64,000 nt of DNA, taken from Bacteroidales bacterium (GTDB lineage: Bacteria > Bacteroidota > Bacteroidia > Bacteroidales > Paludibacteraceae). The first letter of the stretch is position 1, and each line of letters begins with the position of its first letter. The DNA lies in assembly GCA_015061185.1 (NCBI GenBank), contig SUWZ01000003.1, forward strand, positions 1-64,000, written 5' to 3'. Below are positions 270-62,263 of the stretch, in pieces. The notes beneath the pieces were generated by a model, which made no database searches, had not been told where the DNA came from, and worked only from the letters and a program-made list of their open reading frames with translations. The translations under genes were made by a program, and so were the position numbers.

Positions 270-1622
270 TTAGTTTAACCCCGAAAGATCAAGACTAAAC
301 GTTACGTTTGTAAAATTTTCCTTATGGATGAACATCATCATATAGACGGGTAGATACTTGACTTTCCCTTTTTGTGAGGTGTTGTCGTTGCACAATACGA
401 TTGCGGCAGGAATATCATACTCTTTGCAATCAAGAATATTGTTCAAGGCGCGATGTCTTGCGTAGTCTTTGCCGGATTTAACCTCGATAGGGAAGACTTT
501 ACCATTGTGTTCTGTAACAAAGTCAACCTCGCCCATCTTCTTGCTGTTGTAGTAGAACAAATTTTCAAAACCATGTGCCAAAAGTTCCTGTGCTACAACA
601 TTTTCATAGACCGCTCCGTAGTTGATGCTATCGTTGCCCATGAGTATTTTTAGTTGAATGCCATCAGCATACTGACAGGATAGCAATCCTACATCGTTTG
701 AGAAAAGTTTGAAGAGATTTCTCGAAGAGGCAAGTTTTAACGGAGACTTGGGTTCTTCTATGTTATACACAGGGATAGCAACTCCTGCATCTTTTAGCCA
801 AAGGAATTCGTTTTCATACATTTCTGATCGTGCTTTCTCATTGAGATTTTTGATGAAGAATCTCTTGTTTTTTGAATTCAATTCAGATGGAATAAGGTCA
901 AATGCATCTTTAATCCTTAGTTGCCTCTGTTGGTCGTATTGAGAAATATCCTTTCTGTATAGTCGGATAATTTCTCTCTGACTTTCCATGACGTCTTGGA
1001 GATTGTTGTTTTGTTTGTATGACATAACAGCAGCCGGCATGCCGCCAACAATCAAATAAAGTCTGAAAACTTCCATCATCTTCTTGTGTACGAATTCGTC
1101 AACCGGATCTCCCTTTTCCCAAGTTTCTTTTAGCTTGGAAATTATATCTTGATTTATACCTACAGCCCACATAAATTCCTCCAAGTCAAGTGGATACATA
1201 TCTTTAATGTCCATATACCCGACCGGAACAGATCTAAGATTATTTAGTTCTACGCCAAGAAGGGAGCCACTGAGTATATAGCGGTACCTTCCATCGTCCA
1301 CCAGAAACTTGATTGCAGTGACAATTTCTGGGCATTTCTGAACTTCATCAAAGAATATTAGGGTTTCATCTTTGAGCAACGGTTTGTTTGTATATGCAGA
1401 CAATCGCAGCAGAATGTCAGAGCTGTTTTTGGCGTTTGAAAATATTTCAATAGCTTCAGGAGACTCTACGAAATTTATTTCTATAAAGCTCTTAAAGTTT
1501 TCATTTGCAAACTCTCTTACAGAGTATGTTTTGCCTGTTTGACGTGCTCCTGTCAATAATAGAGCCCCTTTGTTAACCTTATAAAAGTGCTCGATAAATG
1601 TAGATATTTTTCTTCGCAACAT
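270..1622 (-). CDS. AAA+ ATPase with DUF4143-type C-terminal domain
   Basis: Walker A-like GARQTGKTYSV, LIFFDEVQKCPE Walker B, C-terminal GEVDFVTEHNGKVFPIEVKSGKDY nuclease-like motif; first ATG at 1622 rather than the TTG at 1643. Confidence 0.85.
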   Translation of the reverse strand: MLRRKISTFIEHFYKVNKGALLLTGARQTGKTYSVREFANENFKSFIEINFVESPEAIEIFSNAKNSSDILLRLSAYTNKPLLKDETLIFFDEVQKCPEIVTAIKFLVDDGRYRYILSGSLLGVELNNLRSVPVGYMDIKDMYPLDLEEFMWAVGINQDIISKLKETWEKGDPVDEFVHKKMMEVFRLYLIVGGMPAAVMSYKQNNNLQDVMESQREIIRLYRKDISQYDQQRQLRIKDAFDLIPSELNSKNKRFFIKNLNEKARSEMYENEFLWLKDAGVAIPVYNIEEPKSPLKLASSRNLFKLFSNDVGLLSCQYADGIQLKILMGNDSINYGAVYENVVAQELLAHGFENLFYYNSKKMGEVDFVTEHNGKVFPIEVKSGKDYARHRALNNILDCKEYDIPAAIVLCNDNTSQKGKVKYLPVYMMMFIHKENFTNVTFSLDLSGLN

Positions 1623-1632
1623 ATTATTTTTA

Positions 1633-1743
1633 CATTTTTCCAAAGCAAATGTATGCTATTTTCTGCATTTTTCCAAAAGATTTTATGCTATTTTCTGCAT
1701 TTTTCCAAAATAAAAACTATTAGATTTCTACATTTTTCCAAAA
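1633..1743. repeat. Four direct repeats CATTTTTCCAAA(A/G) at 32-33 bp period
   Basis: Copies at 1633-1645, 1666-1678, 1698-1710, 1731-1743. Confidence 0.9.
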
Positions 1744-1776
1744 AAAAGTTGTACTAGCTTCAAAATGTAGAGACTA

Positions 1777-2048: not shown

Positions 2049-2819
2049 TTAAAAGTTTTTGGTAAATCTGCATTTGGGGAAATGAGAGCAACCCAAGAAT
2101 TTTCCGTGTTTCCCTTTTCGCTCAACAAGATGACCTCCGCACCTCGGACATTTGCCGTTGGAAATTGCCTCTTCTTTCTCTTTTCTGATTGTTTCTACAT
2201 ATCGAATATGGTTCTCTTTGCTACCTTTGGTTGTGATGTTGGCAGAAGATATTGCGTTTGCAATCAGCTGAACATTCTCTTGGGACATAATGGGGATTTT
2301 GTAGGATTGGATAGTGGAACGTAAATCGCACCAGTTAATCACAGTGTAATTGGGTGTTGTTATCTTTAGTTCTGCATTGTCCGAGAATACTATGATAGGA
2401 ATAATAGGGAAGTAGCCAATCTTTTTCAGTATGGCGTTTAAGGCTTTGGTATGGGACTTGTTTTGAAGAATTGGGTTGGGCAACCTATATTGTTTCTTAG
2501 ACCTGCCAAAAAATCGCTTTCTTCCAATCAGACTTTGTTTCCACTCCTCAGAGTCTTCGTGACCTAAAATTCAACCTTTGTAGTCTTTGGTTTCTATCAC
2601 GAAGATTCCGTAAGGAGATACCACAATATGATCAATCTGTGTTGTACCATAGTGCGTGGGCAATAGAACATCATTGAGAGTGACGTACTCTTTCGAAAGT
2701 CGTTTGAGTTTACGGGCTACACACCTTTCTCCGTAATTGGGTGTGTTTTTGAAAGAAGAAACTCCTCTCACTAAAGCCCAAAGAAGAGCAACGATGCCGA
2801 TGATGATTATTATTTCCAC
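2049..2819 (-). pseudogene. NERD-domain protein with C-terminal topoisomerase-type C4 zinc finger, interrupted by in-frame TGA at 2571-2573
   Basis: ORFs 2571-2819 and 2049-2483 are in the same frame; joined translation ...VIETKDYKG*ILGHEDSEEWKQSLIGRKRFFGRSKKQYRLPNPILQNKS...; Zn finger CPRCGGHLVERKGKHGKFLGCSHFPKCRFTKNF. Confidence 0.8.
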
Positions 2820-2838: not shown

Positions 2839-2921
2839 GGGTGTGTTCTATAAATTCAAAAACATCCGTAACGGAATTTATGAAGAATAAATAGAAAAAT
2901 CGTAATTTGTAGAAGTTGCCC
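2839..2921. repeat. Intergenic repeat family 2 copy (GGGTGTGTTCTATAAATT ... AATTTGTAGAAGTTGCCC)
   Basis: Imperfect terminal inverted repeats; ends recur in about 12 other places in the window. Confidence 0.6.
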
Positions 2922-3379
2922 TATGATATCTTCTCCAAAATCTGCTCTGCGTGAATTTTGGTTTTGATCTCTTTAGGACCCATGATTTGTTCGATGACAC
3001 CCTCTTCATTAATTAAGTAAGTGGTACGCAGAGTGCCGATGGTTTTCTTTCCGCAGAAAACTTTTTCGCCCCAACAACCCAAGGTTTGGAGCAGGGTAGT
3101 TTCAGTATCGGCTATCAAAGGAAATTCCAAATGGTGATTTTCGGCAAACTTTAGTTGAGCCGATTGTTTGTCTTTGCTCACCCCGATGATAGAGTATCCC
3201 TTTTTCGCTAATTCATCCTTGTGTTGTTGCAAGGAGCAAGCCTCTGCTGTGCAACCCGAAGTATTTGCTTTCGGGTAGCAAAACATTATCACCTTTTTTC
3301 CTTTGAAATCACTCGCTTTAATTTCATTTCCGTTTTGGTCTGTGCCAAGAATTTCCGGTATTTTATCTCCAATGTTCAT
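2921..3379 (-). CDS. bcp: Thioredoxin-dependent thiol peroxidase (peroxiredoxin Q/BCP)
   Basis: GDKIPEILGTDQNG...FYPKANTSGCTAEACS-type active site (CYPKANTSGCTAEACSLQ). Confidence 0.9.
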   Translation of the reverse strand: MNIGDKIPEILGTDQNGNEIKASDFKGKKVIMFCYPKANTSGCTAEACSLQQHKDELAKKGYSIIGVSKDKQSAQLKFAENHHLEFPLIADTETTLLQTLGCWGEKVFCGKKTIGTLRTTYLINEEGVIEQIMGPKEIKTKIHAEQILEKIS

Positions 3380-3480
3380 TTGTTAAAAATTTATGGTGTT
3401 TCTATAAATTATGATTGAGCCTTTTTATGGGTATTACCTTAAACTCAGTCGTACTTACTTAATGTAGTAGTTATCCAAAG

Positions 3481-3488
3481 CAAAGATA
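3481..3488 (-). promoter_or_regulatory. -7 box TATCTTTG for bcp
   Basis: caaagata = reverse complement of TATCTTTG, about 100 bp upstream of bcp. Confidence 0.45.
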
Positions 3489-3547
3489 AGGAATATTGTG
3501 GTATTAAAAAAATATATGGTAAAGTATTGAAAAATGATAAAATAAAT

Positions 3548-3555
3548 TAACTTTG
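3548..3555 (+). promoter_or_regulatory. -7 box TAACTTTG
   Basis: Matches Bacteroidetes TAnnTTTG, upstream of CDS at 3616. Confidence 0.5.
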
Positions 3556-3615
3556 CACGTGCGGAAAGTCGATCTAATTTTATAAAAATTAAACTGCTTT
3601 TATATAATATAGAGT

Positions 3616-4077
3616 ATGAAGAGATTAAAGATTCTTATTTTTGTAGCAATCGTCGCTTTATTTGCAACAACAGAGAGTTATGCACAATTCGACAAGATTA
3701 GTTTTGGCAAATATGGGATATCCTCCATTAGTCCTCAAAGTTTAAGGTCTGTAGCAGGAGAGGCGTGGATTGATGTAACCAATGCTGCAAAAAGTTTTAA
3801 GGTATCCAATATACAGGGCGTTGTATATAAAAAGGGGAAACCCTTTGTGACAGGTACAGCCAATGCCTTTCAAGTTGAAAAAGGGACAAAACGTCTGCCT
3901 CTCAAAGGAAAAGCATCGTTATGTGAAGGCGTCTCCTTATGGAGTGTGTTAGGGTTGTTGTCATTTGATGCAAAGGATTATGCAGTCGATGTTTCTATGA
4001 CGGTTACTACCGGAGATGGAAAGCAAAAGGTAATTTCAAAAAAGATGGTTCCATTGAATAAATTATTAAAAAGGTAA
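3616..4077 (+). CDS. Secreted protein of unknown function (LEA14-like resemblance only)
   Basis: Signal peptide MKRLKILIFVAIVALFATTESYAQ; Bacteroidetes-like composition. Confidence 0.7.
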   Translation: MKRLKILIFVAIVALFATTESYAQFDKISFGKYGISSISPQSLRSVAGEAWIDVTNAAKSFKVSNIQGVVYKKGKPFVTGTANAFQVEKGTKRLPLKGKASLCEGVSLWSVLGLLSFDAKDYAVDVSMTVTTGDGKQKVISKKMVPLNKLLKR

Positions 4078-4147
4078 TATCTTTTTCTAAGGATATATCT
4101 ATTTTGTAAAATTCATTATCTTTGCAGAAATTTAAATTTAAAATAGA

Positions 4148-4642
4148 ATGAAGTTTTCAAAGTTTTTAGTAGCCTCCTTATTGGTTTTAGTGGGAGTTGC
4201 TTTCAGTGCATGTGACAAAAAAGATGAAGAAGAAAAGGATTCGGTAAAGGCCGGTGTTCATCGAGTAGAAATTGAGTTAAAGAGTAGTGAATCTTTGGAT
4301 TATATTCTACAAGTAATTCCATCGTCAAATAAAGGAGCATGTGATATGTATTATGAGTTAGAAACAGGTGCAGACGGAGCAGTTTCTGATTTTACAGGAG
4401 GTTCCAGTGTGGGAAGTATGGTGCAAGAGATGGCAACTGTAGATGGTAGAAAAAAAATTATATATTACACATCTAACAATTGTACCAATCTTAATGTGAG
4501 TTTATCATTGATTGCAGCGTTTGAAACGATAGAGTATTCATATACGATTAAATTCTTTATTGATGGTGTAGAAACAAAGAGTTATAGCGACAAAGGGGCA
4601 ACTAAAACATCTGTGCAAAGAATGTTTAATTCGGCAGAGTAG
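4148..4642 (+). CDS. Hypothetical lipoprotein
   Basis: Signal/lipobox MKFSKFLVASLLVLVGVAFSAC; -7 box TATCTTTG at 4117-4124. Confidence 0.75.
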   Translation: MKFSKFLVASLLVLVGVAFSACDKKDEEEKDSVKAGVHRVEIELKSSESLDYILQVIPSSNKGACDMYYELETGADGAVSDFTGGSSVGSMVQEMATVDGRKKIIYYTSNNCTNLNVSLSLIAAFETIEYSYTIKFFIDGVETKSYSDKGATKTSVQRMFNSAE

Positions 4643-61180: not shown

Positions 61181-62095
61181 ATGGATCAGCCTAAAATTGA
61201 GAGATTGTTGAGGATTGTAAAATTGTTGCAAGATTCTGACGTTGATTATACAATTGAAGAAATAGCTCAACGTGTAAATGTTTCTTATCGCACCATTTAT
61301 CGCTATTTAGATACCTTAGAGACGGTTGGTTTTGTAGTGATAAATAAAAGTCCGGGGGTGAAAAAACTTTGTGTGGAGAAGAGAAAAGCATTTGATTTTT
61401 CTAAATTAATCCATTTTTCTGAAGAGGAGGCTTTTGTTATCGATCAGTTGATTGAGGCTTTGGATGAGACCAATGTCTTGAAACAAAACTTGAGAAGAAA
61501 ACTTGCCACGGTTTATGATTGCGCTCCCATCATTCAATCTGTTGTGCAGGGGAGAAAGGCTGCCAATGTGAATCGTATTGTGGATGCAATTCGGAGGAAG
61601 AAGCAAGTGATCTTAAAAAATTACTCATCGTCTTCTTCTAATACAATCAGAGATCGGTTGGTGGAACCTTTTGAGCTATCGCAAAATTATGTTCAAGTGT
61701 GGTGTTATGAGCCGGAGAGTGGAAAAAATAAATTGTTCAAGATGGCACGAATCGAAGAGACTGAGTTATTGAGTACAGGTTGGCAATTTGAGAGTGCTCA
61801 TAAATCAAAGGCGGTAGATGTGTTTCGTTGTGCCATGGAGTCGCCGTTCCGAATTAAGTTGCTGTTAGGAGTGAGAGCGCATAACCTGCTCATAGAAGAG
61901 TATCCTTTGGCGGAAAGAGATGTGAGTCGTTGCGAAGATGGACGGTGGATGTTGGATACGGTTGTGCAAGGTTTTGCCGGAGTGGGCAGGTTTGTTTTGG
62001 GACTTGCTCATGATATTGAAATTGTTGAATCGGATGAACTGAAAAATTATCTCAAAAAGGAGTTGCAAATTGCGGAGTGTAATTTGCTAAAGTAG
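61181..62095 (+). CDS. HTH + WYL domain transcriptional regulator
   Basis: YTIEEIAQRVNVSYRTIYRYLDTLETVGF HTH; RKKQVILKNYSSSSSNTIRDRLVEPFELSQNYVQVWCYEPESGKNKLFKMARI WYL-like. Confidence 0.85.
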   Translation: MDQPKIERLLRIVKLLQDSDVDYTIEEIAQRVNVSYRTIYRYLDTLETVGFVVINKSPGVKKLCVEKRKAFDFSKLIHFSEEEAFVIDQLIEALDETNVLKQNLRRKLATVYDCAPIIQSVVQGRKAANVNRIVDAIRRKKQVILKNYSSSSSNTIRDRLVEPFELSQNYVQVWCYEPESGKNKLFKMARIEETELLSTGWQFESAHKSKAVDVFRCAMESPFRIKLLLGVRAHNLLIEEYPLAERDVSRCEDGRWMLDTVVQGFAGVGRFVLGLAHDIEIVESDELKNYLKKELQIAECNLLK

Positions 62096-62230
62096 AGTGT
62101 CCGGTGGTCTAAAGTTCTATATTTTCCCGTGGTGCTAATCGCATTCGCCCTGTTTTGTATCCGCAGTATTTATCTTCGGTAGGGTAAAATGCGTTTTGCA
62201 AGTTTAAGGTTTTAATTGGCAGTATGTTTG

Positions 62231-62263
62231 AAACCTGAAACTTGAAACCTGAAACCTGAAACT
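62231..62263 (+). repeat. Heptanucleotide tandem repeat (AAACCTG)x~4.7
   Basis: AAACCTG AAACTTG AAACCTG AAACCTG AAACT. Confidence 0.9.

Follow-up and report, generated by a model that had tools for sequence, protein, structure and literature searches.

The window is the whole stretch of DNA analyzed, 64,000 nucleotides from a Bacteroidales bacterium (Paludibacteraceae; assembly GCA_015061185.1, contig SUWZ01000003.1, positions 1–64,000 of the forward strand). It contains a minus-strand gene for a protein with AAA_14 and DUF4143 domains, preceded by four minus-strand copies of TTTTGGAAAAATG, three exact and one with a single mismatch, at spacings of 33, 32, and 33 bp. The features of the locus are as follows.

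270–1622, minus strand: AAA_14–DUF4143 gene, 450 amino acids, PDC-S01 family, presumed array-binding protein (Pfam and PADLOC profiles)
1170–1571, minus strand: AAA_14 domain, residues 18–151, Walker A GARQxGKT, Walker B DEVQ (Pfam)
471–956, minus strand: DUF4143 domain, residues 223–384 (Pfam), with PD-(D/E)XK-like signature E340, E365/D367, E380-x-K382
1731–1743, minus strand: array unit 1 (distal), TTTTGGAAAAATG, exact match
1698–1710, minus strand: array unit 2, TTTTGGAAAAATG(CAGAAAATAGCATA), exact match
1666–1678, minus strand: array unit 3, TTTTGGAAAAATG(CAGAAAATAGCATA), exact match, its TTTG placed as a −33 element
1646–1653, minus strand: −7 promoter box TACATTTG (TAnnTTTG consensus), position conserved in orthologues
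1633–1645, minus strand: array unit 4 (proximal), CTTTGGAAAAATG, one mismatch to TTTTGGAAAAATG

The original prediction had claimed an iteron-like array of four copies at 33, 32, and 33 bp before an AAA-DUF4143 gene, with a −7-like box between units. Both claims held: all four units were located, and the box TACATTTG lies at 1646–1653 of the minus strand, one base off the predicted 1647–1654. The TTTG of unit 3 (1677–1674) is separated from this box by 20 nt, and unit 4, lying 10 nt upstream of the gene's ATG, spans the transcription start predicted near position 1640. This start codon (1622–1620) is conserved across 16 aligned orthologues, and the last unit is therefore inferred to fall in the presumed 5′ leader. 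Within the window, TTTTGGAAAAATG has five matches at one mismatch or fewer (0.74 expected; 0 of 100 shuffles reached five). Tandem Repeats Finder reports the array (1625–1746, period 32, 3.8 copies) as the strongest tandem repeat of the window, with a score of 126, the next best scoring about half of this (61). A separate heptanucleotide repeat, TGAAACC (4.9 copies, 62229–62262), occurs within the last 2 kb.

The window protein matches AAA_14 (E 1.8e-26) and DUF4143 (E 8.5e-31) in Pfam and the PADLOC profile of PDC-S01 (E 2.5e-198); PDC-S01 profiles are also matched by all 24 of 24 diverse homologues. The Walker residues G25, R27, G30, K31, D92, and E93 are invariant in these 24 homologues, and the nuclease-like signature residues E340, E365, D367, E380, and K382 are invariant among the family members aligned, some of which give weak UPF0102/NERD matches; conservation of both sets of motifs is thus shown computationally. 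In an AlphaFold2 model (pLDDT 84, pTM 0.86), the predicted AAA+ core resembles Orc/Cdc6, the middle region is helical, and the nuclease-like domain retains its PD-(D/E)XK residues. The best Foldseek match of the model is PAB2304 (2qen, E 5e-9), followed by Orc/Cdc6 (E ~1e-6 to 1e-5), MuB, Avs proteins, and DnaA, all with modest TM-scores (only 0.2–0.4). Residues 208–310 are likely a winged helix and residues 330–431 are read as a nuclease fold, both from secondary structure and motifs and without a separate test. Sequence search found no solved homologue of the window protein, and profile search for solved homologues returned chance-level matches apart from one weak hit of the ATPase region to midasin.

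PDC-S01, a phage defence candidate in PADLOC of AAA_14–DUF4143, COG1373-like composition, ranks fourth among defences across prokaryotes in a 2026 survey, with 29,494 bacterial and 9,986 archaeal systems; the survey describes it as an ATPase joined to a domain of the PD-(D/E)XK superfamily, and most such candidates still await validation (PMC12988326). In a rumen survey it is the most frequent individual locus (PMC13356809). The family was reportedly discovered by location in or within defence loci, which is not required of each member. The window protein is a clear member by profile and has the ATPase and PD-(D/E)XK-type domain reported for the family; its antiviral function is inferred, and that of PDC-S01 remains a candidate assignment without experimental validation. 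The window gene has no visible defence island within the 22 kb of its one readable side, where the genes are mostly housekeeping; the other side is the contig end. Some relatives of the gene adjoin vsr-like, AbiE, or methyltransferase genes. Just upstream of the window gene (2049–2819, minus strand), a gene encoding a NERD domain and a topoisomerase-type zinc ribbon appears to be split in two by an in-frame TGA, and may be a pseudogene or a sequencing error.

An upstream array with 32–33 bp spacing is a near-general feature of the long-form family and is not peculiar to the window gene. A set of 149 distinct homologues was gathered by protein alone, without regard to arrays, from related genomes, a phylum-wide Bacteroidota sample, plasmids (of Actinomycetota, Bacillota, Fusobacteriota, Pseudomonadota, and Chlamydiota), and viral contigs; archaeal members were not included. 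The histogram of an 8-mer lag test is dominated by 33, 66, 32, and 64, and a motif finder detected upstream repeats spaced by 32/33 bp in 86 of 102 long-form genes. Because arrays are plain by eye in several of the 16 finder-negative genes (L031, L103, L132, L151), this count is conservative; L047, L126, L136, and L146 were finder-negative and showed no array by eye. Two or more spacings of 32/33 bp were present in 81 of 101 upstream regions versus 3 of 98 downstream regions, and in none of the controls (0/102 gene interiors, 0/50 other window genes). In significant long-form arrays, adjacent units are spaced by 33 bp 160 times and by 32 bp 48 times, with no other value seen more than 5 times, and most arrays have 3–6 units. 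The sequences are not all independent; 73 of 82 genes in the pair statistics are left after removal of near-duplicates above 95% identity. The phasing is computationally established across the family. Two outcomes that would have refuted the original prediction, absence of the motif upstream of homologues and spacing that varies without constraint, were both checked and not found: the spacing is as given above, and all full-length orthologues obtained carry an array. The expectation of a single family motif failed, as the specific motif is common to close relatives only and each paralogue has its own unit.

A shorter DUF4143 subfamily (~390 amino acids) more often has no array, or else weaker ones, spaced by 22/23 or 32/33 bp. 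The 22/23-bp upstream repeats, corresponding to two helical turns, are seen at L090, L086, L113, and L049:2988-4185, and the two sets of spacings hint at a step of ~11 bp. In Vibrio, Acinetobacter, and some others (L072, L075, L151, L103), units are palindromic or near-palindromic, for example around TGCGCA. As opposed to direct asymmetric units, these could reflect a different binding arrangement, for which there are no binding data.

The genome of the window has 12 DUF4143 genes, 11 of which have upstream repeats visible by eye, each with a different unit; L015 is the sole one of the 12 without repeats by eye. The closer two proteins are in identity, the more alike their units (Mantel r = 0.53, 0 of 2000 permutations), and the units of these paralogues are no more alike than those of genes from different genomes. 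This computational result shows that unit sequence tracks the protein, not the host, and a unit private to each paralogue fits self-recognition better than a single family motif would. The unit–protein correlation is partly expected from linkage alone; constraint on the units is concluded because the spacers, though equally old, have diverged. The AAAAn[TC]G core is oriented with the gene in 154 occurrences and against it in 35. The longest arrays are exemplified by L012 (G000:C9:3522-4034), where pattern search finds 16 units over 513 bp in 33-bp steps and one further diverged unit adjoins the gene, giving about 16–17 in total. A regulon of dispersed sites was rejected, in that the exact 13-mer TTTTGGAAAAATG has no copy outside its array in the whole 2.9-Mb genome and the L012-type unit has just one weak match elsewhere (three mismatches or fewer). 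Covariation did not single out a DNA-recognition segment of the protein: region-wise partial correlations between unit and protein were weak (best r 0.29, lid/linker residues 158–207; 0.20, wHTH-like region).

In the orthologues of the window gene (L051–L064 and viral L066, 60–87% identity), the array lies directly before the start codon. The unit is TTGGAAAAATGCA in close relatives and TTGGAAAAACGGACAAA in a group of ~62% identity. Across eight aligned close relatives (77–87% identity), the cores are nearly invariant and the spacers have diverged; these relatives retain a TAnnTTTG-like −7 box between their two final units, and the TTTG of the penultimate unit takes the −33 position. A search of 300 same-family genomes for orphan arrays, using the paired window unit, returned just the window's own array and one further array, before a DUF4143 gene (G296/L162); no paired window units were found in the viral contigs searched.

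Overlap with promoters extends beyond these orthologues. Of 80 genes with arrays in the Bacteroidota and viral-contig set, 56 have TAnnTTTG no more than 110 bp from the start (shuffling expectation, ~7/94), most commonly ~30 bp before it. The commonest position of the −7 box is 20 bp downstream of one core start and 13 bp upstream of the following one (20 + 13 = 33), and in many genes all units are upstream of the promoter box. The viral-contig genes L149 and L150 have a perfect TTGACA-N17-TATAAT promoter with one unit inside the spacer, and in L141, also of sigma70 type, units lie over the −35 element and the start. In most other sigma70-type genes, the promoter call is not clearly better than chance. 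Units therefore sit on core promoters of two types, Bacteroidetes-type (TAnnTTTG) and sigma70-type, as shown computationally. Their position is that expected of a repressor; in the absence of expression data, repression as opposed to activation is inferred.

In gene pairs with 90–98% DNA identity, homology begins near the array and stops near the stop codon, with unrelated sequence on either side. The transferred unit thus includes the array, again a computational demonstration. Pairs sharing essentially the array and ORF include L053/L066, L056/L059, and L059/L062; a few within-genus pairs (L039, L041, L043) are simply syntenic. Homology extends into a vsr-like gene in L056/L058 and into a downstream terminator-like repeat in L061/L063, extra sequence as expected of ordinary transfer. 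The vsr-like repair endonuclease gene beside the nearly identical L056/L058 cassette (around 2858–4402) has an intact start in L058 and is cut short in L056. Transposon-like ends were rejected, as no consistent target duplication was present at the two junction pairs inspected. The ATPase gene is the sole trans-acting factor travelling with the array.

The reading we favor, with a probability of roughly 0.66, is autoregulation through a private operator: the ATPase would bind cooperatively to the helically phased array in front of its own gene. The encoded AAA+/nuclease-like protein would recognize its own asymmetric unit of ~14–16 bp and assemble on at least three copies, 32–33 bp (about three helical turns) apart and roughly on one DNA face; 33 bp slightly exceeds three turns of relaxed B-DNA, and 'same face' is approximate. 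Both the binding and its cooperativity are inferred. With one unit on the −33/−35 region or the −35/−10 spacer, and often another at the start site, a bound array would exclude RNA polymerase and so hold down the level of an ATPase-nuclease that could be harmful, and loss of occupancy would raise expression. Movement of array and gene as one cassette would preserve specificity after transfer to another host, and co-resident paralogues would have diverged in their units to avoid cross-talk. The suggestion in the original prediction of autoregulation by the ATPase is supported insofar as units overlap the promoter, as autoregulation needs; its alternative, a functional DNA substrate, is not excluded.

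The most serious rival, which remains possible, takes up that alternative: the array would be mainly a working DNA platform on which the ATPase parks or nucleates, so that a stored oligomer is activated against invading DNA and promoter control is secondary. AAA+ initiators are known to nucleate at origin repeats, and the predicted fold of the window protein has a modest-scoring similarity to Orc/Cdc6, DnaA, and MuB, all of which form assemblies on DNA. The invariant nuclease residues and the ~11 bp per turn quantum of the 22/23 and 32/33 spacings also favor a platform, as do arrays of about 16–17 units, which exceed the need of simple repression and so count against the operator. Against the platform, units are superimposed on promoters of two different types, most arrays have just 3–6 units, and the array remains before its own gene. 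Long arrays and the initiator-like fold nevertheless leave a resting or activation role of the array conceivable. A bolder reading joins the two, and is offered tentatively: the array would be both an autorepressing operator and a resting or sensing platform, from which disturbance by infection releases or activates the protein (such release is inferred); mobile single-gene cassettes would pair an initiator-like AAA+ nuclease with its own phased array; and specificities would diverge, allowing a single cell to hold many orthogonal copies.

Other explanations fare worse. That the array is a mobility part of the single-gene cassette, such as a recombination end or homing site recognized by its own product, is suggested by the homology blocks between unrelated flanks, and is unlikely given that there are no matching repeats downstream, no consistent target duplication at the two junction pairs inspected, and shared non-cassette sequence in L056/L058 and L061/L063. 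An origin of replication is likewise improbable because 12 DUF4143 genes occur in one genome, 11 with visible upstream arrays, and a plasmid iteron system was rejected, with no Rep domain among the Pfam matches. Binding of the repeats by a host regulator instead of the ATPase can be entertained since binding by the ATPase rests on inference; it is very unlikely in view of at least ten paralogues with different units in one genome, similar units in different genera with similar proteins, and the travel of just the ATPase gene with the array as a trans-acting factor. Least tenable is the absence of a dedicated function, through promoter duplication or replication slippage, or an RNA or CRISPR-like element. 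The repeats do contain promoter-like TTTG/TTTTG words, and near-identical neighboring units in L012 and L057 look recently duplicated. However, cores are conserved while spacers diverge, units without a −7 box are conserved too, and many genes have every unit upstream of the promoter box. A known RNA element was rejected, as Rfam gave nothing at E ≤ 0.1 and folding was unremarkable (z = 0.38), and so was a CRISPR array, given short cores with drifting spacers and not long identical repeats with unique spacers. A PADLOC scan of ten window proteins revealed no cas nuclease with convincing support; the sole cas-like signal came from a WYL regulator, whose Cas-associated matches are weak. A WYL-domain regulator-like protein is encoded at 61181–62095 (plus strand).

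Several known systems resemble the array in part. Archaeal Orc1/Cdc6 origin repeats (ORB) are oriented, lie beside their own gene, and are initiator-specific; the likeness to these and to DnaA boxes consists in an AAA+ core of similar predicted fold, at modest scores, and in oriented, binder-specific repeats adjoining the gene of the presumed binder. Unlike Orc1/Cdc6 and DnaA, the window protein has a nuclease-like domain and is one of 12 DUF4143 gene products in its genome, and its repeats lie in phase on promoters with no sign of an origin. Plasmid iterons are phased direct repeats by a Rep gene, and co-resident systems differ in specificity; the arrays here share non-palindromic direct repeats beside the gene of the presumed binder, helical phasing, and differing co-resident specificities, but their spacing is mostly 32–33 bp, versus ~22 bp for iterons, and they belong to chromosomal single genes with no replicon and no Rep domain. 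Restriction–modification (R-M) controller proteins, AbiEi, and CapW/BrxR control defence-gene promoters from the same locus, similar in that an operator lies over the promoter and the factor is encoded with the gene. Here, in contrast, there is no separate regulator, so that the effector ATPase would regulate itself, and the direct-repeat units number 3 to about 17. A cognate upstream array for DUF4143, COG1373, or PDC-S01 is not mentioned in the literature searched, which excludes the defining preprint (Payne et al. 2024), and an earlier mention there is not ruled out.

With an array before nearly every long-form PDC-S01 gene, the mechanism becomes concretely approachable for the first time: the sequence upstream of each gene shows the likely DNA ligand of its product. 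Direct tests of binding, of the need for ATP, of nuclease control, and of induction are thereby opened up, and the many natural protein–site pairs of the family form a large set from which the rules of DNA recognition by such AAA+ proteins could be learned. Nature offers a test of cognate specificity at L022:2842-3139, where two divergent PDC-S01 paralogues share a common intergenic region of 297 bp with a different array facing each gene.
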